Shown in pieces: positions 1,678-44,390 of a stretch of 64,000 nucleotides of DNA (the stretch's first letter is position 1; each line of letters opens with the position of its first letter). A program made the position numbers and the translations under genes. A model generated the notes under the pieces. That model did no database searches. It was not told the DNA's origin and saw nothing but the letters and a program-made list of their open reading frames with translations. Source of the DNA: Phycomyces blakesleeanus NRRL 1555(-) (lineage: Eukaryota; Mucoromycota; Mucoromycetes; Mucorales; Phycomycetaceae); NCBI RefSeq assembly GCF_001638985.1, contig NW_017265188.1, positions 310,001 to 374,000 of the forward strand, read 5' to 3'.

Positions 1678-2307
1678 CTACTGGTAAATGTCTTTGCCAG
1701 TAGGAGCCTGGAATCCAGAAGTAGCCTCTAATGCTGGGATAGCAGTCAAAGAGAGGCGAACGATAATAACTGGTAACTGCTTGTTGATTGAAATTCTTTT
1801 TTTTTTTGAAAGATAAATGAGATTTCATTTCCTTATAGATAAATATATATAAATTAATACTTACTTGTCCAAGTTATTTTCCTTGACAGGATCCCATGTA
1901 TCTACAGTCTTTGTGCTTCCGATTTGTGTATACTGATATAGTCGACCTTCCATGCGTCGCTTGATAATCTCTACCACGCTCACTGCCTTGTTTACAGTCT
2001 TTCCTTTCCCAATAATTACAATACTAGGCTTCTTATCTTCCTGTTATCAAGAATCAAATTTTAGTTATTTAGCTGAGGCAGGCTAAACGACCGATTACTA
2101 TTATTATTACCTGTAGTGCCTTGAGTCCGACATCAACATAGAGTGTGATAGTTCCGTTAGAACCTATAATGATCTCGTTGTCTGACGTAGGTTTATTTTC
2201 GTCGGATCTATCTGCTGATTCTGTTGTTCTACGATACTCCTCCACTATAAATACATATTAGTTGTTGTTTTTAATACAAAGGTACATTTTCAATAAAAAA
2301 GCTTACT
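1678..2307 (-). CDS. RPP25-like Alba-domain RNA-binding protein (RNase P/MRP subunit family)
   Basis: Four coding segments on the minus strand: 2307 (one base), 2244-2111, 2040-1865 and 1795-1678, giving 429 nt and 142 residues. Introns are 62, 70 and 69 bp, all GT-AG. The protein starts MEEYRR, like the MEHYRK start of animal RPP25/RPP25L. It continues with an Alba core: SIVIIGKGKTVNKAVSVVEI, then IKRRMEGRLYQYTQIGST, then a TVDTWDP loop and a LPVIIVRLSL strand. Alba proteins of this branch form the RPP20/RPP25 dimer that binds the P3 domain of RNase P and MRP RNAs; that role here is inferred from similarity. Odd: the start codon is itself split, with A in the first exon and TG in the second. 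Without the third intron the frame would stop at 1861, but that would lose the last Alba strand. Confidence 0.82.
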
Positions 2308-3452
2308 TTTTGTTCCAATAAAAAAAGTCGGGTCCTTAAACTTTCACGTGATCCAATAAAAGAAAAGAATAATTAATAAACCAAATAGTTGTTTGTTAAT
2401 CCAATGAACCCCAAATATCCCAAGTCGATTGGCAACAATATTCAGCTTTGCAATTGTTCACATTATATCCACTCTCGTTTTGTCGCCTTCCACCCTTGAA
2501 CACTCCCATTTTTTATAGACAACTCGCACAAAGAACCACTGCAGGATCATTGAATGGATCCGAGTGGCCTCTTTTGAGAAGACGAACCGCGACACATTGT
2601 TTTCATCCCGTTCTCCAAGAAGAATTTGGATGAAAGACAAGAGAAGGGTCGATACTTGATATTGCTTTAATTTATCCACCAACAGCATCTTGACTCATAA
2701 TGTCATGGTTCAGGAAAAAAGCTTGATAAATAAATGTCGTGCCACCCTTTAACGCCATAGAAAAAATCTCCCACTAGACGATCTAACAATGGCAGCAGGA
2801 ATTATTCCTACCTCTGAAGGAGGTAGTGGTAGATTTCCCCGAGTTTGCTCTTTGTCCGGCCTTACGGAACCACATCCACAGACTAAAGAAGGGTACCAAG
2901 ATTACGGACAGTGATGATCGGGCACCTTTTTAGGGGTGCTAATGGATGTGCTCTGGGGATAGACGCGAGAGAGGTCTTCGAACCTTTTACGTCTTCATCT
3001 TGTGATTGCCAATCGACCAATGCCGTACACACACACACACACTAGAGCAAAAGTAACAATTGAAATATATAAATACTTACTTTTATATATATATATATAT
3101 AATATTTAAAGGGTTTAGTAGAGAAAGTTGTTGAAAATGAGGTATTTTCAAAATAAAATAATAAAAAAATGAAAAACCTCCATTTGCATACGTGTGTTAT
3201 GATAAATGTTTAGAATAAAGATGTCGTCATCTTAACCAACTCCGCTTGTCAGATTACACGATAAGTTTATATACTACAAAATACAGGCAATCACACTTTC
3301 CTGAACCTGAAAGAATTCGGCAGGTCCGGCACAAACTGTATTTCTATTGGCATTTGTATTTCTCTGAATTCATCTTTTTTGATGCATCTGGTGCATTCCA
3401 TCTTTGCACCAAATCAATTTTTATTTTTGCAACCAATAATTTCCGGAAAAAG
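2308..3452. other. Intergenic, AT-rich with small repeats
   Basis: Holds the presumed promoter and 5' UTR of the RPP25-like gene. There is a short CA repeat near 3029 and a TA repeat near 3088. A 41-codon plus-strand frame starts at 2789 but shows no domain. I see no supported gene. Confidence 0.5.
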
Positions 3453-30853: not shown

Positions 30854-32196
30854 TCAACGGCTCTTTCTTGAAAAATCATCAAACATATTTTGTTGATGTT
30901 CTATCTTTGATGGAGTAGCCACATAATTTCCAGGGAAAATACCAACAGAACCATCTTCCAGTTGCCCTTGCCACCATTGACTTGGAACTCCCGTAGCCGG
31001 ATCCACCTTTGAAAGTATGTACACCGTATCTCCACGTCGAAGATTCAATTCCATGGGGGTTTCCGCTACAAAATCGTGAAGTGCATGTGTGACTTCCTGA
31101 GGTTGATTAAAATGACCACCTCCTTGAGGACCAAATCCTCTAGCCTGCATAAGCATCTGTCTTTCCATCTCTCTTCGGTAGCTTGCACGTTGCATAAGCT
31201 TAAATACCATGTAAGGAAGGCCAAACACAACTGCCATAAATATAATAGCAGCCCGGCGACGATTAGTAGGCTTTGCATCCTCTGATTTTCCGGTAAGCTC
31301 TCCTTCTGCAGTTGATTCTGAGCTGGTGACCTGTAAATGTTCTCCTTCCCCAGGCGGTGCTACGGGCTCTTCTAGTTCCGGCGGGGGTGTTCGCCCGGTC
31401 AACTTGTAAAACATTCGCTTCAGCCATCGAATAAGAGCATATATACTAAAAAGTCGACCAAGGTACTGCCGAAGATGACCAAACTGTTCAGCAACACCGA
31501 CCATTGCCATAAAGCTAGAGTATGTTGCCATGTATGTTGAATCGAGCATCTGAGCAAACCCACCAAACGCACCAACAACTTGCTCTATAACATCAAATGT
31601 CGCTCGAGTTCCAGACTCCATGCGCTGTGTTAGACTAAAGTCTCCAGGTCCTCCAGGTCCTCCGGCACCATACATTCCTCCACTACCGTACCCAAATTGG
31701 CTGTATGGCGAGTAATTACTACCGTACGAACCAAGACGATTATAAGATGAGTATGAGTTCATTCCACCATAAGAAGAACCATACGAGCCATATCCGCTGC
31801 CATATCCGCTGCCATATCCACTTCCGTATCCACTTCCATATCCACTTCCGTATCCACTTCCGTATCCACTGCCTAGTCGGTTGTAAGAGCCGTATCCACC
31901 GCCTAATGTACTACCTACACCATATCCAGCTGTACTTCCAAGGCATATATAAATAAGAAAAAAAGTATTTCTAGATTAGATCTAATGAGCACAAGTGTTA
32001 TATATATATTAGGGGGTTACGAACCTCCCAAACCATTCGTTGTCCCTAATGTTGATGTTCGTAATGGTACATTTGGCACAGCTGAATCAGCGTTTGTTAT
32101 ATTAGAGGTTCCCGTAGTTACTGCTTGTGGTGATACTACTGCTGTTACAGGTACAGCGGCATTATTGACTTCCCAGGGTTTTGGAGGCGATGGCAT
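30854..32196 (-). CDS. PEX13: Peroxin 13, docking and translocation component of the peroxisomal membrane
   Basis: Exons 32196-32021 and 31934-30854 give 418 residues. The start MPSPPKPWE is typical. A long tract of G-S-G-Y and Y-G units (residues about 63-110) forms the YG domain, followed by TRATFDVIEQVVGAFGGFAQ, the conserved membrane-associated helix of PEX13. A second hydrophobic span (AAIIFMAVVFGLPYMVFKL) leads into the SH3 domain: ALHDFVAETPMELNLRRGD, then WWQGQLEDGSVGIFPGNYV. PEX13 docks PEX5 and PEX14, and its YG repeats are reported to build a selective meshwork in the import pore. The intron uses donor GTAACC and an AAG acceptor, fixed by reading frame. The promoter side faces the giant palindrome 435 bp away. 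Confidence 0.92.
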
Positions 32197-32631
32197 TTCG
32201 ATGAACTTTTATTAAACCATTTTTTCTTGTTCTTCTTTTTCCTTTCCCCACAAAGATCTTTCACCTATCACGTGAAATTAGATATTTGTCTCCGGTGCGT
32301 TTTTGATGTGTAAGGATTTCTGTAGAACCGTTTGATTGATTTATCCGGTCGGGATCAAGAGAAGCAAAACTCAAAATATACAATTACACCTTGACGATTC
32401 CCCATGCTTATAATACCAAATTATGGGGAGTCGACCTCAACTGGTGTATAGGCTAACACACTGCCTATATTCACAAGTTTCTTTAAATTTTATAATTGGG
32501 GCAGTATACTGGATATATTTCTTACCTAAGAACTCCAGTTACGGTGGTTTTAAAGTTAAATCAAACCCCCATTTCTTGCTCCAATTCTGTATAACCGGGT
32601 GATATTGTCTCATAAGAAAATATACTCATAA
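32197..32631. promoter_or_regulatory. PEX13 upstream region, now bordered by the palindrome
   Basis: AT-rich DNA between the PEX13 start codon and the outer end of the palindrome. Together with the 100 bp between the palindrome and CENP-W it looks like one former divergent promoter split by an insertion. Confidence 0.45.
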
Positions 32632-32633
32632 TA

Positions 32634-33127
32634 GGGGGTTTCACCAGCTTTGGATGCTTGACTGTTGGATGTAGCGGTAGTTTAATTCGAAAATGATTGG
32701 CTATGACGAATCTTCAAGAAATGAAAACTGAGCATCCAGGCATCCAAAAAAAAATAGTTCGATAGTCTAATGTAATGACTTGGCCAAAATTTACAAGATT
32801 CTGTACTTTATGTACGATTGATGGCAAGGTTCATAGAAAAGCAATGTCAAAAATAAAACATAATTAATCTATGTAAGAGTGGCTATCTTAATACAAAGTT
32901 ATAGAAGTCTAACTTACTTGTAGGGAATTTGAGCATGGGCAATATATTTATGAGTATTCTAATCAAGTGTATTATAAATATGAATTCTGACGTATATGAG
33001 AGAAACCGTATCAACCAAGAGACATTAATGGTATTCAATAGTTGTTTTTTGACATTGGTTATTGTTGGATAGTGCTTAAACTAACAATACATCTAACAGT
33101 CAAGCACCCAGAGCTAGTGAAACCCCC
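32634..33127. mobile_element. 494-bp terminal-inverted-repeat element, left palindrome end
   Basis: Begins GGGGGTTTCACCAGCTTTGG and ends in the inverted version (GGGGGTTTCACTAGCTCTGG read from the other strand). The repeat extends about 50 bp with several mismatches (shared core TGCTTGACTGTT). TA lies directly outside each end (32632-32633 and 33128-33129), matching Tc1/mariner-type TA duplication. There is no coding capacity, so it is MITE-like. Confidence 0.8.
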
Positions 33128-34080
33128 TATAAGGAAAAGCTCTTTGAATTGAAAATCTAATATATTATGAGAAAAGGATAGTTTTACAATCTGGGTCTAC
33201 TTCACCTTATTTCTGAATCATTATTCTTTACATTTGAAAAGGTGATACGGACAGTATTGGTTTATATGATGAAGTGGTCCAAACGGTTAAAAGAAAGAAA
33301 AGAATAGATATCGATCTCCTTTATCATATCCTTGACTCAAATATTTGCATTTGGCAGCTTGTTCTCTCAAGAAAGATAAAAAGAAAACAAAAGTGCTGTG
33401 TAAGGATGGTCTTTATCGCTTTCATCTTTCGATGTTTATATGGCTATTTCGATAGTTAATAAAGAAAAATAAGATAATCAGTAAGATATTGTTAAGCTAT
33501 TACAAAGATGTTGGGATAGAATATGCTTCTTTGGATAATTAATAATGAATAAGAGAGAGAAGTAGAAATAGCTAAATATTTCTGTGGTTGATTATTACAA
33601 TTCTTGTGTCTTTTAATTGATTTCTTCGCCAGCTATAAGAATTATATTCTTTTTGCGGTTACGACTTGAGCAATTTTTTTTACATAATTGATACAAAGAA
33701 AGGTTTAGGAAGATAGGATATGTCTGGGTCATATGGAAGTTCAAAGACACGCGCAATTAACTAATGAACTAATGAAGAATCTTCTATTTATGCAAGCTCT
33801 CAATGAAGATAAAGATAGCGAATATATCTACTAAGAAGATAATGCTCCCTGTCACAAGTTTAATATTGGATAAGAGTGGAAGAAATGACATAATTTTATA
33901 GTAATAGTAAGGCTGCCAAGTAGTTTAGATTTTAGCTCTATGGAGATCTCATAAGAATATTCCACCAGAAGAGTGAAAAAGAAAAAAGAGGTTAATCTTC
34001 AAATACTTTTAAGGAGGTGGCGGTTATTACCTATATGGAATAAAACAATACTCGGACTGGTGTTTATAATATTAAGTGCA

Positions 34081-34153
34081 TGTTAATGCCTAATTGCTTG
34101 TCAATGCCTAATTGCGTGGCAATGCCTAATTGAATGTCAATGCTTAATTGCAT
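34081..34153. repeat. Four tandem 17-bp units, left arm
   Basis: Units follow the pattern CAATGCCTAATTGC plus three variable bases, with small differences between copies. Mirrored at 42769-42841 in the right arm. Confidence 0.85.
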
Positions 34154-34481
34154 ACATGAGATGAGAAAGGTTAATGAAAGGTCATAAAACTATTGATTTT
34201 TTTTAAAAAAAAACTATACCTTTGTATTTATATGTTTTCAGGCATGAGTTGTCAAGTGAAAGAAGATCGGCTAAACCAAGAATGCTAAAGAAGTTGTAGT
34301 ATTGATTTATTAGAACTTAATAAGTATGATGCCCATTGTTGATACGTGTCTATACATATACATACCTTGCTTGTAAAAGAAAATTCGACCTGATTTTAAT
34401 ACTGAATATTGTATTAAAATATTCATTTATATACTTTTAAAGTATATCCGATAAATCCCAAAAGTAAAAATAAAGATTTTT

Positions 34482-35682
34482 TTGTCAAGACCTGCGCTTG
34501 AAGGCCGATCCACTCAAGTTTACACCCAAGCTTCTCAACAACCCTCATTCCTGCCTACTCGGCATGGCATCAAATTTACCATGACGGCAAAGTATCGGTG
34601 AAATGCTTTAATGCCAAACTGCTCGGGACAGGTGTCTGAGACACCCAAGTGAACAGCATAGCATTTACTTAGGCACCTTAACTTTGCTTCGGGTTCGTCC
34701 CTCATGTCCAGTTCTGTTTACCAGAGCGTGGGTTACAAGTATCAAAGTCTAAGCAATGAGGGACTTGAAAAGCACAGGGATCATTTCAACAGGAAGCAGT
34801 AAAATACAGGCGATTGTACTGGGTAATCTGTCGATTCTGCTGGGAATCTACCTGTATTACCTCACGTCCAGGTGCTCAACGAATTTAAAAAACTCTACGC
34901 ATCCAGGTGATACACCCTTATACTTGCACCTTTCTGTGACAATCTTGACATGCCCCAAAGGACAAAATCTGGAGAGCCAATATCCAACGTCCTAAGAAAA
35001 TAGCATAAAGCTACCTCTGCGTTCCTCAGTCTTCTCCATGTTATGTGCCGCACAACACAGAAAAAACTGACGTGGATTTCATCCGGCTTTCGCCTTCATA
35101 TGAGTGGCTCAGGAAGGTCTTTAACGTCCAGTATGCTCTACACTAAGAGCTACTTTCCCTTACGGTACTTGTGTTCAGTTGGTTTTTTATAAGTATATTT
35201 AGCCTTCGATGAAACTTTTCACCAGGATTAGGGAGTTTGTAAAACAACCCGACTCATCGGAAGCTACTTAACACAAAGACAAGAACTCAAGACAAGGTGA
35301 GGGGATTGCACCCTCCAGTAACCTTTTCCAGGGAGTGAAGGCTACTGACTTGTTGGTATGTCTGGAAAAGCAGTTCACTAGTTCACAATCCAGAGCAGTC
35401 AAAAGACTACTCCGGTTCAAACATTGGAGCTTCTCCATCTCAAACAATAAAGTCCAAGACGGAATCCCTTTTGGTTTCTTTTCCACTGCAGTAAATGCAG
35501 GTAGAATCGCTCAAAGTACGGACCAATTTTAGGCCATGGTACCTTGAGCGAACTCAATGACTAGACGCCAAAGAGTGCAGTGCGTTCAATAAAAAAACCA
35601 GAATCTCATATTAAGACAAGCCTTATAAATAAGGCGTCTACAATGAGCGAGTTGGAAAAGAGCCCGGAGACTCACTGTTAAA
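34482..35682 (-). ncRNA. 5.8S/LSU-rRNA-like structured RNA, left-arm copy
   Basis: Exact mirror of the module described at 41240-42440. The landmarks and helices listed there apply with position 76922-p. Both copies are identical over the landmark segments I compared, which indicates recent duplication or ongoing gene conversion. Confidence 0.7.
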
Positions 35683-35861
35683 GACCATGATATACACATT
35701 TTGCATGAAAATGTTTACGTATATTCCTTTTGATATATCGTGACCGATAGAATACGAGGTACTCAGTGACCACTCCAAGAGTAGAGATATAAATAAAAAT
35801 CGAGTATAAGGTTAATATACTTATTGTGTCAAAGTGTGTGCGCGTGTGCGCGTTTACTTAC

Positions 35862-36753
35862 CTAGCTGTTAACTGCGAAGGGTGTAAAATACTGAGCTGG
35901 TTCTCGGTACACCTCTCCATAAGCATACTTTGAACACTATCAAGAGAATAAAGTAATATAAAAGTATAAAGTGAGTATGTTAATTGAGTCAAAGTATGTA
36001 TATATTGACTTACCACTCAGTGGACCATACATGGTATGAAGGCACCATCAAAAGAATGGTGGTTAACAGCTAAACAGAACTAGAAACTGCAATAGAAAAA
36101 AAGAAAACATCAAATCATAGTTAGCGTGTTGATCGTGTCAAAGTATATGTGTATGTACGCGTTTACTTACCTAGTAAACAGCAGCGGAAGGCTTGAAAAG
36201 TACTTGTGCTAAAAAGCAAGACGGGACGGGACACTGGACACTGTGATAAAATAAAAGAAATATCGAATCATAGTTAGTGTATTGATCGTGTCAAAGCGTG
36301 TGTGTGTTTGCTTACCTAGCAGATAACTGCGTAGGGTTTAAAAAAGTACTTGTGCTTAAAAGCAAAACGGCACTGGACACTGGACACTGTGACGAAAGAA
36401 AGAAAACATCAAATCATAGTTAGTGTGGTGATCGTGTCAAAGCATCTGTGTGTGTGTATTTACTTACCTGGTACATGAACTTGACGTGAAGGACCTCTCC
36501 GTAGCTACAGTGGAATGGACGCTGGGCATAGAAGACAGAAAAAAAACATGCACAAGAAAACACTGTGCTGTAGTTAGTATATTGACCGTGTCAAAGTGTG
36601 CATATGTCTGTATAATACTTTACCTGCTATTAGACTGGACATCATTTTTGGAACTTAGCTAGAAACCGCGTCTGGGGTGCGTTTTCATAATAAATATCAG
36701 TATGCACCTTATACGGATAGAAAGATATAGGCATTTAAAGACAATTTTCTTAC
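35862..36753 (-). ncRNA. Row of exon-intron-like repeat units, left-arm copy
   Basis: Mirror of 40169-41060. Donor and acceptor signals are read on the minus strand, for example CCAG|GTAAGTAAATAC with its GT at 36467-36466. Confidence 0.6.
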
Positions 36754-37499
36754 CGTGTCGGAAACCAAGGACCACCGAAAGGAAACCAGGAGGAAGAGGA
36801 GGGATAACAGGAAATTGAGAATTGTATCGATTCTTATATGAAAAAAAAATGGGGATGGCGCAGCACGGAAGGCGTAAACTGTCTATTTTGGATAAATCAA
36901 AACAAATTCATATGAAAATTAAATAGTTTCATGTTTTCAGTAAAAGCTCCATGTTTTTTATCGCATATTTTTATTGCGTATTTTTTATCGCATATTTCTA
37001 TCAACGACCTATTGGTATTATCTAATAGATACATTGAATAGTACCAACACTGAATACATTTGAGTATTACCTTGTTTTAGATAACATTTATATTCCTTTG
37101 GGGAATATATTTCTATATCTTTATGTTCACACTACTGATAATCATTATTATTATTATTATTATTTAAAAAAAAAATACCAAGTAAATAAAGAAATTCTCC
37201 TTAACATTATAATCACACTTTGTTTTCTTTCGCTTCACAAAGTATCCTGAAAGTCATATAAGTATATAAGAACTACTATTAAGAAAATAATAGCATGTTT
37301 TTATTAAGCTATTTTTTTTATTTAGGCTATTCAGTTTTACATACATATGCAATATCTCTTGTGAGCTGCAAACATAATACTCTTTCTTACTCTTGATCAA
37401 TAAAAACATCGTTATTATAATGTATATTCACATATCTTAGCTAGCATGACTTATTCTTTACATAATTATGTCTAGAGCCAAAATTTTAATTATATAAAT

Positions 37500-39422
37500 T
37501 TCATGGCAATTGAGACTTGAGTGGTTTGTGTGATAGATTGCTCAAATGCGTAAGAAAAGATAATATATACTGATCTACTATAATATCATGTTAGCCTATA
37601 TATTGTGGATATCAGTCTATTCTCTTGAAAATAATAAGAAAATAAATAGAGAGATGTGTTAGGATAGTCTATATTACTTTTATTTTTTTAATGGTTAAAT
37701 ATATATACATTAACAGATAATATAATAATACAGTCAGTAAGATCAACTTCAGCAGTTTACTGAAATATTTACATTTAAAGTTATCTTAAGATATTAAGAC
37801 TTGGAGTATAGTATTTACATTTTAACAATATTTCAAGGCTTGTATAGATTATGTACTTTAAATCAATTTAATATCTTATACTGGTAGAGCCTAAGTATTT
37901 ATAGACAAGCTGGTGGCACTGTTGGTTTCGGACAAGTACCCATATTCAATTACCAACACAATTAGTATTATCAAAACTATCCAATTTTCTCAATAACATG
38001 CTATCAGCTTAACTCAGAAAAACTATATATTCCCAAATAAATCAACTCAATAAAAAACAACTTTTACACACTTATATTTTCTTTTTCTTTATTTTCTCTG
38101 GGTATTTATCCGAAAAACACTTTTATTTGCTACAAAGACTATGAATGTTTATCTGATAATCCCCTTTTTCCTTTTCTAAATGTTTTTTTTTACAAACTTC
38201 TTACACCACACCAACATACACAGCACGTCTCACCACTCTCCTACCAATTTATCTGGAATCATTCGACATTATATTTCTGTGACCTCCGTTTATCGCCACA
38301 TATTGACTACTATCATGTTTTTAATGACGTTCTTTCTTCTGCTCAAAAGTCTTACTGGAGAACAATTTCTGGCAATTTTTTGTTTGTTCTTGACGATATG
38401 TAAAATGTATTAAAAATAGCATATAAATAGAGCAGTAGTATTAAGTGTATCTGCAATATTCAATATATTTACAGCAACAAAGATAATATTTATATACAAG
38501 AAGTACAGACTATAAGAAAAGATAAGATAGTAGTTAAAAGATATACAGTTCTGTCTTTATTTCGCAGGAGTACTTAATATATTGAATTCATGTAAAATTT
38601 TGGCTAGAAATTATATTTTTCTTTCTCACTCTATTTTACGTTTTTATTTTGATTCTTCTCATTTATTGTTTATCATGAGTCAAAGATTTAAATCAAAGTT
38701 CCAATTGTCTACTTTTTTTTTCTCTTTTGTTCTCGTTTAATTGAATATATGCATTTCAGAAAAAAAATATTAAGAAAATATTGGAAACTAATCAGAAGAC
38801 TTGTTGATATTGGTGATTTAGTTGCTGCTGCTTCTGCTGTTCCTATTGATATTATATGATTAGTCTTGATGATTTATCAAGAAAAGTGCACAAAAGTAAA
38901 ACAGCAAGTAAAAGACAAGAGAAGAATAATAAAAGTATATACATATAGAGATATGGAGGGATTCTTACCTGTTATATTCTGTGCTTTGATCTTAGAAAAC
39001 ATATTATTGTTCTGATTTTATTAGATGGGCTATATCAGCATTAAATATAATTCAAAATATGTAGCTAGTTTGATAGGGTATAAGCATCATTACATTTTTT
39101 TTGTTAAAATAGTTATAGATATTGTATATTGAAAATAATGTAAAAGCAGAAGGGTCGAGTAAAGAAAAAAAAGAACTCGCCGACTAGACTCTGTATCAAA
39201 GAGTAATGTATTTATCAGAGAGAAAGAGAAAAGAAAGAGTATGAATACGTACTATTAGAGATTTACAGTAGCTGTAAAATGTCTACAATAATCCTTTAAA
39301 TAATTTTTTTAATGATTTTAATATGATTTCAAAGCAATATAAGCTGTAACAGTATATACATACTACAGTGTCCGAAAGAAAGGTTTAACAGCTTTATTAT
39401 TTATCTATAGCTTTACTAATAC
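37500..39422. other. Palindrome spacer, no gene seen
   Basis: AT-rich and unrelated to the arms. The longest frame (38180-38413, plus) shows no domain. A GCT/CTG-rich patch occurs near 38826-38850. Confidence 0.6.
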
Positions 39423-40168
39423 ATTTATATGATTAAAATTTTGCCTCTAGACATAATTATGTAAAGAATAAGTCATGCTAGCTAAGATATGTGAATATAC
39501 ATTATAATAACGATGTTTTTATTGATCAAGAGTAAGAAAGAGTATTATGTTTGTAGTTCACAAGAGATATTGCATATATATGTAAAACTGAATAGCCTAA
39601 ATAAAAAAAATAGCTTAATAAAAACATGCTATTATTTTCTTAATAGTAGTTCTTATATACTTATATGACTTTCAGGATACTTTGTGAAGCGAAAGAAAAC
39701 AAAGTGTGATTATAATGTTAAGGAGGATTTCTTTATTTACTTGGTGTTTTTTTTTTAAATAATAATAATAATAATAATGATTATCAGTAGTGTGAACATA
39801 AAGATATAGAAATATATTCCCCAAAGGAATATAAATGTTATCTAAAACAAGGTAATACTCAAATGTATTCAGTGTTGGTACTATTCAATGTATCTATTAG
39901 ATAATACCAATAGGTCGTTGATAGAAATATGCGATAAAAAATACGCAATAAAAATATGCGATAAAAAACATGGAGCTTTTACTGAAAACATGAAACTATT
40001 TAATTTTCATATGAATTTGTTTTGATTTATCCAAAATAGACAGTTTACGCCTTCCGTGCTGCGCCATCCCCATTTTTTTTTCATATAAGAATCGATACAA
40101 TTCTCAATTTCCTGTTATCCCTCCTCTTCCTCCTGGTTTCCTTTCGGTGGTCCTTGGTTTCCGACACG

Positions 40169-41060
40169 GTAAGAAAATTGTCTTTAAATGCCTATATCTT
40201 TCTATCCGTATAAGGTGCATACTGATATTTATTATGAAAACGCACCCCAGACGCGGTTTCTAGCTAAGTTCCAAAAATGATGTCCAGTCTAATAGCAGGT
40301 AAAGTATTATACAGACATATGCACACTTTGACACGGTCAATATACTAACTACAGCACAGTGTTTTCTTGTGCATGTTTTTTTTCTGTCTTCTATGCCCAG
40401 CGTCCATTCCACTGTAGCTACGGAGAGGTCCTTCACGTCAAGTTCATGTACCAGGTAAGTAAATACACACACACAGATGCTTTGACACGATCACCACACT
40501 AACTATGATTTGATGTTTTCTTTCTTTCGTCACAGTGTCCAGTGTCCAGTGCCGTTTTGCTTTTAAGCACAAGTACTTTTTTAAACCCTACGCAGTTATC
40601 TGCTAGGTAAGCAAACACACACACGCTTTGACACGATCAATACACTAACTATGATTCGATATTTCTTTTATTTTATCACAGTGTCCAGTGTCCCGTCCCG
40701 TCTTGCTTTTTAGCACAAGTACTTTTCAAGCCTTCCGCTGCTGTTTACTAGGTAAGTAAACGCGTACATACACATATACTTTGACACGATCAACACGCTA
40801 ACTATGATTTGATGTTTTCTTTTTTTCTATTGCAGTTTCTAGTTCTGTTTAGCTGTTAACCACCATTCTTTTGATGGTGCCTTCATACCATGTATGGTCC
40901 ACTGAGTGGTAAGTCAATATATACATACTTTGACTCAATTAACATACTCACTTTATACTTTTATATTACTTTATTCTCTTGATAGTGTTCAAAGTATGCT
41001 TATGGAGAGGTGTACCGAGAACCAGCTCAGTATTTTACACCCTTCGCAGTTAACAGCTAG
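40169..41060 (+). ncRNA. Row of exon-intron-like repeat units, right arm
   Basis: Six intron-like segments can be read: 40169-40250, 40299-40400, 40455-40535, 40607-40681, 40752-40835 and 40909-40985. A seventh donor is at 41061. Donors are GTAAG or GTAAA and acceptors CAG or TAG. Most introns share an internal block CTTTGACACGATCAA followed by CTAACTATGATT, a good branch-point context. The intervening exons are 48-75 nt. Those at 40536-40606 and 40682-40751 share TGTCCAGTGTC and GCACAAGTACTTTT. Three exons end in a shared form like CGCAGTTATCTGCTAG. So a unit of about 150 bp (exon plus intron) was duplicated several times. None of the exons has a long common reading frame, so a non-coding spliced RNA is the better reading. 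It leads straight into the rRNA-like module. Confidence 0.6.
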
Positions 41061-41239
41061 GTAAGTAAACGCGCACACGCGCACACACTTTGACACAATA
41101 AGTATATTAACCTTATACTCGATTTTTATTTATATCTCTACTCTTGGAGTGGTCACTGAGTACCTCGTATTCTATCGGTCACGATATATCAAAAGGAATA
41201 TACGTAAACATTTTCATGCAAAATGTGTATATCATGGTC

Positions 41240-42440
41240 TTTAACAGTGAGTCTCCGGGCTCTTTTCCAACTCGCTCATTGTAGACGCCTTATTTATAAG
41301 GCTTGTCTTAATATGAGATTCTGGTTTTTTTATTGAACGCACTGCACTCTTTGGCGTCTAGTCATTGAGTTCGCTCAAGGTACCATGGCCTAAAATTGGT
41401 CCGTACTTTGAGCGATTCTACCTGCATTTACTGCAGTGGAAAAGAAACCAAAAGGGATTCCGTCTTGGACTTTATTGTTTGAGATGGAGAAGCTCCAATG
41501 TTTGAACCGGAGTAGTCTTTTGACTGCTCTGGATTGTGAACTAGTGAACTGCTTTTCCAGACATACCAACAAGTCAGTAGCCTTCACTCCCTGGAAAAGG
41601 TTACTGGAGGGTGCAATCCCCTCACCTTGTCTTGAGTTCTTGTCTTTGTGTTAAGTAGCTTCCGATGAGTCGGGTTGTTTTACAAACTCCCTAATCCTGG
41701 TGAAAAGTTTCATCGAAGGCTAAATATACTTATAAAAAACCAACTGAACACAAGTACCGTAAGGGAAAGTAGCTCTTAGTGTAGAGCATACTGGACGTTA
41801 AAGACCTTCCTGAGCCACTCATATGAAGGCGAAAGCCGGATGAAATCCACGTCAGTTTTTTCTGTGTTGTGCGGCACATAACATGGAGAAGACTGAGGAA
41901 CGCAGAGGTAGCTTTATGCTATTTTCTTAGGACGTTGGATATTGGCTCTCCAGATTTTGTCCTTTGGGGCATGTCAAGATTGTCACAGAAAGGTGCAAGT
42001 ATAAGGGTGTATCACCTGGATGCGTAGAGTTTTTTAAATTCGTTGAGCACCTGGACGTGAGGTAATACAGGTAGATTCCCAGCAGAATCGACAGATTACC
42101 CAGTACAATCGCCTGTATTTTACTGCTTCCTGTTGAAATGATCCCTGTGCTTTTCAAGTCCCTCATTGCTTAGACTTTGATACTTGTAACCCACGCTCTG
42201 GTAAACAGAACTGGACATGAGGGACGAACCCGAAGCAAAGTTAAGGTGCCTAAGTAAATGCTATGCTGTTCACTTGGGTGTCTCAGACACCTGTCCCGAG
42301 CAGTTTGGCATTAAAGCATTTCACCGATACTTTGCCGTCATGGTAAATTTGATGCCATGCCGAGTAGGCAGGAATGAGGGTTGTTGAGAAGCTTGGGTGT
42401 AAACTTGAGTGGATCGGCCTTCAAGCGCAGGTCTTGACAA
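41240..42440 (+). ncRNA. 5.8S/LSU-rRNA-like structured RNA, right arm
   Basis: Landmarks of eukaryotic nuclear rRNA appear in the correct order. ATTGAACGCACTGCACTC at 41332-41349 matches the 3' half of 5.8S. GGAAAAGAAACC at 41438 matches the LSU 5' end. GAGTCGGGTTGTTT is at 41667, GGCTAAATAT at 41718, ACAAGTACCGTAAGGGAAAG at 41750, GTTAAGGTGCC at 42240, and CGAGTAGGCAGG with CGGCCT..GCAGGTCTTG at 42360-42436. Between landmarks the sequence is strongly diverged, yet helices hold: 41507-41517 pairs with 41522-41532 (11/11), 41552-41560 with 41591-41599 (9/9), 42277-42282 with 42286-42291 (6/6). The 5.8S-like 3' end (41371-41382) pairs fully with the LSU-like start (41404-41415), leaving a 21-nt loop where IT S2 should be. 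It stops at about yeast LSU position 1430, so it cannot be a complete LSU rRNA. Confidence 0.7.
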
Positions 42441-42768
42441 AAAAATCTTTATTTTTACTTTTGGGATTTATCGGATATACTTTAAAAGTATATAAATGAA
42501 TATTTTAATACAATATTCAGTATTAAAATCAGGTCGAATTTTCTTTTACAAGCAAGGTATGTATATGTATAGACACGTATCAACAATGGGCATCATACTT
42601 ATTAAGTTCTAATAAATCAATACTACAACTTCTTTAGCATTCTTGGTTTAGCCGATCTTCTTTCACTTGACAACTCATGCCTGAAAACATATAAATACAA
42701 AGGTATAGTTTTTTTTTAAAAAAAATCAATAGTTTTATGACCTTTCATTAACCTTTCTCATCTCATGT

Positions 42769-42841
42769 ATGCAATTAAGCATTGACATTCAATTAGGCAT
42801 TGCCACGCAATTAGGCATTGACAAGCAATTAGGCATTAACA
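42769..42841. repeat. Four tandem 17-bp units, right arm
   Basis: Mirror of 34081-34153. Confidence 0.85.
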
Positions 42842-43794
42842 TGCACTTAATATTATAAACACCAGTCCGAGTATTGTTTTATTCCATATAGGTAATAACC
42901 GCCACCTCCTTAAAAGTATTTGAAGATTAACCTCTTTTTTCTTTTTCACTCTTCTGGTGGAATATTCTTATGAGATCTCCATAGAGCTAAAATCTAAACT
43001 ACTTGGCAGCCTTACTATTACTATAAAATTATGTCATTTCTTCCACTCTTATCCAATATTAAACTTGTGACAGGGAGCATTATCTTCTTAGTAGATATAT
43101 TCGCTATCTTTATCTTCATTGAGAGCTTGCATAAATAGAAGATTCTTCATTAGTTCATTAGTTAATTGCGCGTGTCTTTGAACTTCCATATGACCCAGAC
43201 ATATCCTATCTTCCTAAACCTTTCTTTGTATCAATTATGTAAAAAAAATTGCTCAAGTCGTAACCGCAAAAAGAATATAATTCTTATAGCTGGCGAAGAA
43301 ATCAATTAAAAGACACAAGAATTGTAATAATCAACCACAGAAATATTTAGCTATTTCTACTTCTCTCTCTTATTCATTATTAATTATCCAAAGAAGCATA
43401 TTCTATCCCAACATCTTTGTAATAGCTTAACAATATCTTACTGATTATCTTATTTTTCTTTATTAACTATCGAAATAGCCATATAAACATCGAAAGATGA
43501 AAGCGATAAAGACCATCCTTACACAGCACTTTTGTTTTCTTTTTATCTTTCTTGAGAGAACAAGCTGCCAAATGCAAATATTTGAGTCAAGGATATGATA
43601 AAGGAGATCGATATCTATTCTTTTCTTTCTTTTAACCGTTTGGACCACTTCATCATATAAACCAATACTGTCCGTATCACCTTTTCAAATGTAAAGAATA
43701 ATGATTCAGAAATAAGGTGAAGTAGACCCAGATTGTAAAACTATCCTTTTCTCATAATATATTAGATTTTCAATTCAAAGAGCTTTTCCTTATA

Positions 43795-44288
43795 GGGGGT
43801 TTCACTAGCTCTGGGTGCTTGACTGTTAGATGTATTGTTAGTTTAAGCACTATCCAACAATAACCAATGTCAAAAAACAACTATTGAATACCATTAATGT
43901 CTCTTGGTTGATACGGTTTCTCTCATATACGTCAGAATTCATATTTATAATACACTTGATTAGAATACTCATAAATATATTGCCCATGCTCAAATTCCCT
44001 ACAAGTAAGTTAGACTTCTATAACTTTGTATTAAGATAGCCACTCTTACATAGATTAATTATGTTTTATTTTTGACATTGCTTTTCTATGAACCTTGCCA
44101 TCAATCGTACATAAAGTACAGAATCTTGTAAATTTTGGCCAAGTCATTACATTAGACTATCGAACTATTTTTTTTTGGATGCCTGGATGCTCAGTTTTCA
44201 TTTCTTGAAGATTCGTCATAGCCAATCATTTTCGAATTAAACTACCGCTACATCCAACAGTCAAGCATCCAAAGCTGGTGAAACCCCC
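43795..44288. mobile_element. 494-bp terminal-inverted-repeat element, right palindrome end
   Basis: Mirror of the left copy. The outer end CCCCC at 44284-44288 is followed by TA (44289-44290), after which similarity between the two flanks ends within a few bases. Confidence 0.8.
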
Positions 44289-44390
44289 TATTATAGTCAA
44301 TCAAATTGAACAACAAAGACCGGTTGTCGCTTAGCTGCTTTTGACTTTTGTAAATTCTCTCATACTGATCCCTAAGTTGATTCATTTACA

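Follow-up and report, generated by a model that had tools for sequence, protein, structure and literature searches.

We analysed a 64,000-nucleotide stretch of the genome of Phycomyces blakesleeanus NRRL 1555(-) (contig NW_017265188.1, positions 310,001 to 374,000; referred to as the window), which is C31:310001-374000 of the fungus's own genome as searched here (G000; 53.5 Mb in 60 contigs). The window contains a palindromic element of 11.7 kb whose two arms each carry a putative gene for an RNA resembling the 5' half of large subunit (LSU) ribosomal RNA (rRNA). Inverted-repeat comparison places the arms at 32628-37499 (plus strand) and 39423-44294 (minus strand), 4,872 nt apiece, around an AT-rich central spacer of 1,923 nt (37500-39422) that separates the two predicted divergent genes. 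The arms are 99.856% identical, with 7 mismatches in 4,872 positions, every one of them within 323 bp of the inner end, and a near-perfect inverted repeat of 4.87 kb is far beyond chance. Each outer end is formed by a 494-bp element that resembles a miniature inverted-repeat transposable element (MITE), at 32634-33127 on the plus strand and, as its mirror, at 43795-44288 on the minus strand. The terminal repeat of this end element begins GGGGGTTTCACC..., and the left copy has a TA at its inner end as well. The whole unit is framed by a TA target duplication (32632-32633 and 44289-44290); identity between the arms extends 6 nt beyond the terminal repeat, TA included, and is then lost. These comparisons confirm the palindrome that a sequence-only reading had described, with near-identical arms of about 4.87 kb, each stopping where a TA-flanked element of 494 bp has its outer end, around a 1.92-kb spacer.

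The same reading had proposed that the element carries two RNA-like modules and no protein gene, and both statements held. Protein-coding cargo was rejected, as no stop-to-stop open frame of the element exceeds 120 aa (the longest is 38041-38403) and none of eight open reading frames (ORFs) tested from it matched Pfam over the cut-off. Of the two modules, one proved to be LSU-rRNA-like and the other a tandem exon/intron array. The rRNA-derived gene in the arms, which had not been recognised as such, is the larger surprise.

The LSU-rRNA-like sequence forms a terminal exon of 1.29 kb, which lies at 34484-35774 on the minus strand in the left arm, as bounded by Rfam RF02543 and genome comparison, and at 41148-42438 on the plus strand in the right arm (C31:351148-352438, from the exon search), so that both copies read outward. 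The model RF02543 (LSU_rRNA_eukarya) matched positions 34475-35501 of the minus strand with 134 bits and an E value of 4.7e-33 when a short stretch was searched at a permissive setting. Matches in the window scored 134 and 143 bits, and all eight further loci given reached 141-170 bits. The fast default Rfam scan of the window listed nothing; a 134-bit LSU match was lost by the default filters, so such rRNA-like genes may escape routine annotation. Universal LSU stretches are recognisable in the exon in collinear order. The domain II-like part, including the closing helix, occupies 34484-34949 on the minus strand (model positions 665-1455, E 5.8e-23); its alignment includes both strands of that helix, which closes at 34484 and contains two pairs in which both partners have changed. 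The conserved block ends at the same helix. Judged from the domain II alignment and this edge of conservation, the exon probably takes in domains I and II of the LSU and goes no further. The element showed no trace of domains III-VI, and no second LSU match was seen in 33000-39500 at E<=5. The exon shows homology to LSU rRNA together with its secondary structure, and does not hold the full six domains with the peptidyl-transferase centre.

Much of the LSU pairing is kept in the exon. We compared 174 LSU pairs, 79 in the domain I-like stretch (35151-35524, minus strand, from the RF02543 alignment) and 95 in domain II, and found 150 of them standard in the window copy. At 53 of the 174 both sides differ from the Rfam consensus and pairing is kept. 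When the 3' partner was shifted by one or two bases, the share of pairs left fell to 34-39% for domain II and to 38-51% for domain I. This pairing persists at about 59% identity between the exon and the Rfam consensus (393 of 664 positions). In addition, the domain II fold has a z score of -3.96, with none of 100 shuffles as good.

Upstream of the exon on the same strand we found tandem units of about 150 bp that carry GTAAGT, CTAAC and CAG in intron order. Under the strict pattern GTAAG..YTAAC..YAG, the window copy has four predicted introns in the transcript direction and none in the opposite direction, compared with a mean of 0.17 and a maximum of 2 in single-base shuffles. All four are on the minus strand: 35937-36013 (GTAAGT...TTAAC...TAG), 36087-36170 (GTAAGT...CTAAC...CAG), 36241-36315 (GTAAGC...CTAAC...CAG) and 36387-36467 (GTAAGT...CTAAC...CAG). 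The predicted last intron (35775-35861, minus strand), whose acceptor adjoins the exon, falls outside these four because its acceptor is GAG in the window type; in the C14, C22 and C4 copies it is CAG. Ten copies were scanned, and each has one to four strict introns and none in the opposite direction, with four in the window, C34, C14, C22, C13a and C2:1157500 copies, three in C11 and two in C5. The upstream regions of C14 and C22 are only about 68% like that of the window copy. As a separate observation, the region upstream of the exon in the C4 copy (L038:3120-4609) consists of tandem repeats of about 54 bp. Within the exon, in the roughly 120 nt that precede the start of domain I, short stretches resemble by eye parts of 5.8S rRNA, among them two of 15 bases in the window and C14 copies that were read against the host 5.8S, and a possible 5.8S-like stretch at 35565-35690 (minus strand) is suggested by this resemblance, with no significant alignment. 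The host's own 5.8S rRNA lies at C17:779570-779722, the single match among the best 39 of 1129 candidates.

The exon is much less divergent than its surroundings. The search with 34484-35774, in which all 36 candidates were scored, gave 37 matches in the genome, of which 31 run end to end (one shorter by a base), two lack 27 nt at the start and four are pieces, two of these abutting in one rearranged copy. Identity to the window exon is 88-100% in the 33 full or near-full copies. In a table of 30 rows, which includes the window's left copy and the rearranged copy, exon identity is 93.0-100%, and the minimum flank identity is 74.6% for the 500 nt downstream, 67.8% for the 500 nt upstream and 62.8% for the next 500 nt upstream (values from BLAST pieces merged per strand). 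In several copies the low-divergence block breaks off sharply on one side or the other, where the 3' splice site lies or where domain II ends. Pair counts were made on an alignment of 21 distinct sequences among 29 copies, from which the two pieces at C13:717402-722871 (<1,400 bases) were left out; a first exon alignment, with rows C31b and C2a badly bounded, served for reading by eye only. Among the changes at LSU-paired sites, 12 of 16 keep a standard pair, compared with 8.6 expected, and all four pair-breaking changes belong to one copy, C5. Of the six changes that are U-to-C or G-to-A, five affect G-U pairs. Variable sites make up 16 of 300 paired positions and 72 of 741 other exon positions (Fisher p 0.02). 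These patterns point to purifying selection for sequence and fold, rather than homogenisation, as the probable cause of the low divergence.

End element, arm and spacer served as further queries against the genome, the end-element and arm searches being scored for part of their candidates (best 40 of 77 for the end element). From these best 40 of 77, the end element has at least 116 matches. Most copies scored show self-inverted terminal matches of about 40-55 bp, that is, the terminal inverted repeats (TIRs) of a MITE, and a terminal-repeat pattern gave 30 forward and 30 reverse matches, with 0 and 0 in the reversed control. Based on the exon search, ten palindromes in the genome hold two exon copies each, and in all ten the left copy is on the minus and the right copy on the plus strand, so that both read outward. 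The family ranges in size from 11 to 22 kb. Seven of the ten carry a copy of the 494-bp element at either outer end: that of the window, C31:409910-422055, C31:452200-463871, C35:82981-94957, C35:210771-222958, C22:730191-752578 and C2:428626-442314. TA is found on both sides in five of the seven (the window, the two other C31 palindromes, the C2 palindrome and C35:82981-94957), while C35:210771-222958 has TA/CA and C22:730191-752578 an A-run on both sides. At C2:1154344-1161233 there is one more pair of inverted end elements, flanked by TA at left and right, and a single exon. When 17 outer flanks (239-1498 bp) were compared all against all at E 1e-5, one 48-bp match was found and otherwise none. 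The same ends in unrelated flanks are what a unit moved by its outermost repeats would leave behind, and they support mobility of the palindrome as a unit, as the sequence-only reading had suggested; the further copies do not all end elsewhere. Viral contigs had no match to a 30-base exon pattern.

Within a palindrome the arms are 99.68-100% identical over their aligned parts in the seven of ten that were compared (three C2 palindromes were left out), whereas between copies the same arm stretches differ by several percent to more than 20%. This likeness is explained by arm-to-arm gene conversion or by repeated inverted duplication, and the data fit both. Inversion of the spacer was considered as a sign of recombination and rejected, since a flipped spacer between identical arms is equivalent to an element inserted in the other direction.

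The genome has at least 159 matches to Tc1/mariner transposases (DDE_3), from the best 150 of 553 candidates; a further search for an autonomous partner covered the best 40 of 111. Among the 150 DDE_3 matches listed, pairs of similar score (at most 5 bits and 16 kb apart) were inverted in 19 cases and direct in 6, and 9 of 2000 strand shuffles gave as many as 19 inverted pairs. In three of the inverted pairs the two members are 4,603-4,605 bp apart; pairs with a spacing of about 4.60 kb include C11:1350045/1354648, C19:154808/159411 and C15:73774/78379. An inverted-dimer organisation seems common in the Tc1/mariner superfamily of this fungus.

We regard as the best explanation of these observations, and as a reasonably probable one, a foldback element that is non-autonomous, targets TA as Tc1/mariner elements do, and carries two divergent genes whose half-LSU-like RNA is under purifying selection. 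That the exon belongs to an RNA gene at all appears likely. The inverted dimer would move as one unit through its outermost terminal repeats, with a Tc1/mariner transposase acting in trans, and arm-to-arm gene conversion or renewed inverted duplication would keep the arms of each copy alike. Each arm would hold one gene that starts near the central spacer and is transcribed outward through short spliceosomal introns into the 1.29-kb terminal exon. The exon RNA would be a reduced 5' half of LSU rRNA (domains I and II, perhaps preceded by a 5.8S-like stretch) and would fold like the part of the rRNA that is normally first to assemble in the 60S subunit. Domains I and II are the first solid part of the nascent 60S, hence the suggestion that the RNA acts there as a decoy or stand-in. 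It could engage the ribosomal proteins or assembly factors of this first step, as decoy or regulator, and the benefit would fall to the element or to the host. Such a function at an early step of 60S assembly is speculative and, in our estimate, rather doubtful. We put forward only tentatively the broader proposal that palindromic transposons domesticated the LSU 5' half as their own spliced non-coding gene, selected for entering or mimicking the first stage of 60S assembly.

Several observations weigh against parts of this account. The whole-exon Rfam alignments were reported with model ends at 1888-3401, at odds with a limit at domain II. Part of the changes on both sides of a pair is, as far as the alignment goes, a product of the aligner's preference for pairings, and some may have been inherited from the source rRNA. 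The host LSU, 3' of the host 5.8S, is a run of N in the assembly (C17:779847-781265), and the comparison made here is with the Rfam consensus. RNAalifold found two pairs changed on both sides in the family, a weak covariation. As regards the introns, the C2:3343550 and C4 copies have a single strict match each, within the shuffle maximum. For the 5.8S-like lead, RF00002 gave no match on the exon region at E<=10, and the scores of the alignment to host 5.8S were reached by 101 and 139 of 1000 shuffles. In terms of constraint, the closest copies have flanks that are 97-100% alike as well, four copies outside the 30 rows (C9 and three of C4) have exons only 88-93% identical to that of the window, and C13 and C34 share 99% of their upstream 500 nt too. 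The copies are mosaics, and because of this and the shared upstream region of C13 and C34, gene conversion certainly adds to the low exon divergence. Lastly, no element joining these ends to a transposase was found among the listed matches of the pattern, terminal-repeat and transposase searches, and of the 150 DDE_3 matches listed, one lies within 2 kb of any of the 34 terminal-repeat positions checked.

Copies of the exon outside palindromes raise the question of whether the host gene came first, that is, whether a family of host non-coding RNA genes with some role in the cell gave the half-LSU-like RNA, the MITE-bounded palindromes being one route of its multiplication. Thirteen of the 33 full or near-full exon copies lack a full-length inverted partner (three of C13, C34, C11, C5, C9, C14, C2:1156293 and four of C4), and the C13, C34, C11 and C5 copies have no end element in the approximately 1.5 kb read on each side. 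However, the unpaired copies are repeats too: those of C13, C34 and C11 have 4 kb or more in common, and a partial inverted partner exists for two of the four C4 copies. Among the copies read, no single unique locus stands out, and we consider this origin rather unlikely.

A neutral passenger would be a fragment of an old LSU pseudogene, trapped by a foldback element, whose copies stay uniform through nothing but ectopic gene conversion among them. The mosaic structure of the copies fits this: C22 switches between two exon types inside the exon, the arms are homogenised within copies, and full-length identity of 100%, at full score, is found in six exon copies, both of those in the window among them. 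On the other hand, the conserved block runs from the 3' splice site to the domain II closing helix, with one or other edge abrupt in copies that differ in their surroundings, and the great majority of exon matches (31 of 37) are preserved from end to end. Changes at paired sites avoid breaking pairs, the C5 copy excepted, and LSU pairing has outlasted the extensive divergence from the consensus. Taken with these points, conversion of a functionless fragment seems an unlikely explanation, a little below that of a founding host gene.

The palindromes might also have spread by segmental duplication or repair, with the 494-bp end elements being incidental. In line with this, three of the ten palindromes (C24, C2:750956-765217 and C2:3341118-3359737) have the end element at one side only, and it is inverted relative to the arm at the left end of C35:82981-94957 and at C2:764717. 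The other seven stop exactly at the outer ends of the end elements on both sides, five of them between TA and TA, in flanks that are unrelated, and such a spread is very improbable by comparison with transposition through the outermost repeats. Finally, long perfect inverted repeats are hard to assemble and C2:428626-442314 contains a run of N, but the flanks differ for each palindrome and the arms are not identical in six of the seven compared, here with the 7 mismatches near the centre, so that a single arm assembled twice is barely credible.

The foldback element with RNA genes shares features with several known systems. Long inverted-repeat elements, TA-targeting MITEs and short interspersed elements (SINEs) with rRNA-derived heads have all been described. 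The foldback or long-TIR transposons Galileo, FB and Tetris likewise consist mostly of long inverted repeats and are mostly non-autonomous; here, in contrast, the target is TA, MITE-like repeats form the ends and a conserved putative RNA gene sits in each arm. The Drosophila FB elements make a 9-bp target duplication, whereas the palindromes described here have TA only. The kilobase inverted arms, which amount to 9.7 of the 11.7 kb, nevertheless place the element with the foldback or long-TIR group. With the Tc1/mariner MITEs it has in common the TA duplication, the terminal inverted repeats and the small, non-autonomous 494-bp unit in many copies, but here two inverted units bound an 11.7-kb unit that would move along with them, and no transposase with these ends is among the matches listed.

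SINEs derived from 28S or 5S rRNA are also transposable elements with rRNA-derived sequence: short retroelements with an rRNA-derived head, copied through RNA, with a tail and a variable target duplication. In contrast, we found a predicted intron-bearing gene in a DNA element, with LSU domains whose base pairs are kept, intron signals in all ten copies scanned, TIR and TA ends, and arms of kilobase length. The palindromic rDNA minichromosomes of Tetrahymena, Physarum and Dictyostelium carry two divergent, complete rRNA units that face outward, and have telomeric ends. The two outward, divergent rRNA-type units are shared, whereas the palindromes described here are chromosomal, end in TIRs instead of telomeres, and hold a strongly diverged half LSU with introns upstream. 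Compared with eukaryotic LSU rRNA (RF02543), domains I and II are collinear and many universal stretches are in common, but the expansion parts and the GTPase-centre stretch of domain II are reduced and domains III-VI are absent. The literature surveyed, in which most subscription papers fell outside the scope, mentioned no DNA transposon family with a conserved, intron-bearing gene for half an LSU. We know of no other transposon with a constrained rRNA-derived structural RNA gene.

If expressed, the RNA would be a natural LSU domain I and II construct detached from the ribosome, and could serve as a probe of the first 60S assembly module alone; it would also show DNA that is selfish or domesticated exerting an effect on ribosome biogenesis. 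With its ten natural palindromes, this one genome offers material on which gene conversion between arms can be studied. The palindrome family, taken with the transposase genes in inverted pairs, suggests that this fungus often makes or keeps inverted-dimer transposons.

Other features were noted in and beside the palindromes. A second MITE-like unit lies inside the arm at 33243-33728 of the window (TGAGACGG...GTGTCA) with an apparent CTCA duplication, and the TGAGACGG unit is also inserted in the spacers of two other copies (C35:216776-217266 and C24:375202-375693). The spacers of two copies contain insertions of about 525 bp that resemble solo long terminal repeats (TGTTGTAAATG...CCACAACA; C31:416362-416886 and C2:756254-756787), with 5-bp duplications GTTAA and TACTT. 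To the left of the palindrome in the window, the neighbouring gene at 30854-31975 encodes peroxin-13 (Pfam Peroxin-13_N and SH3).

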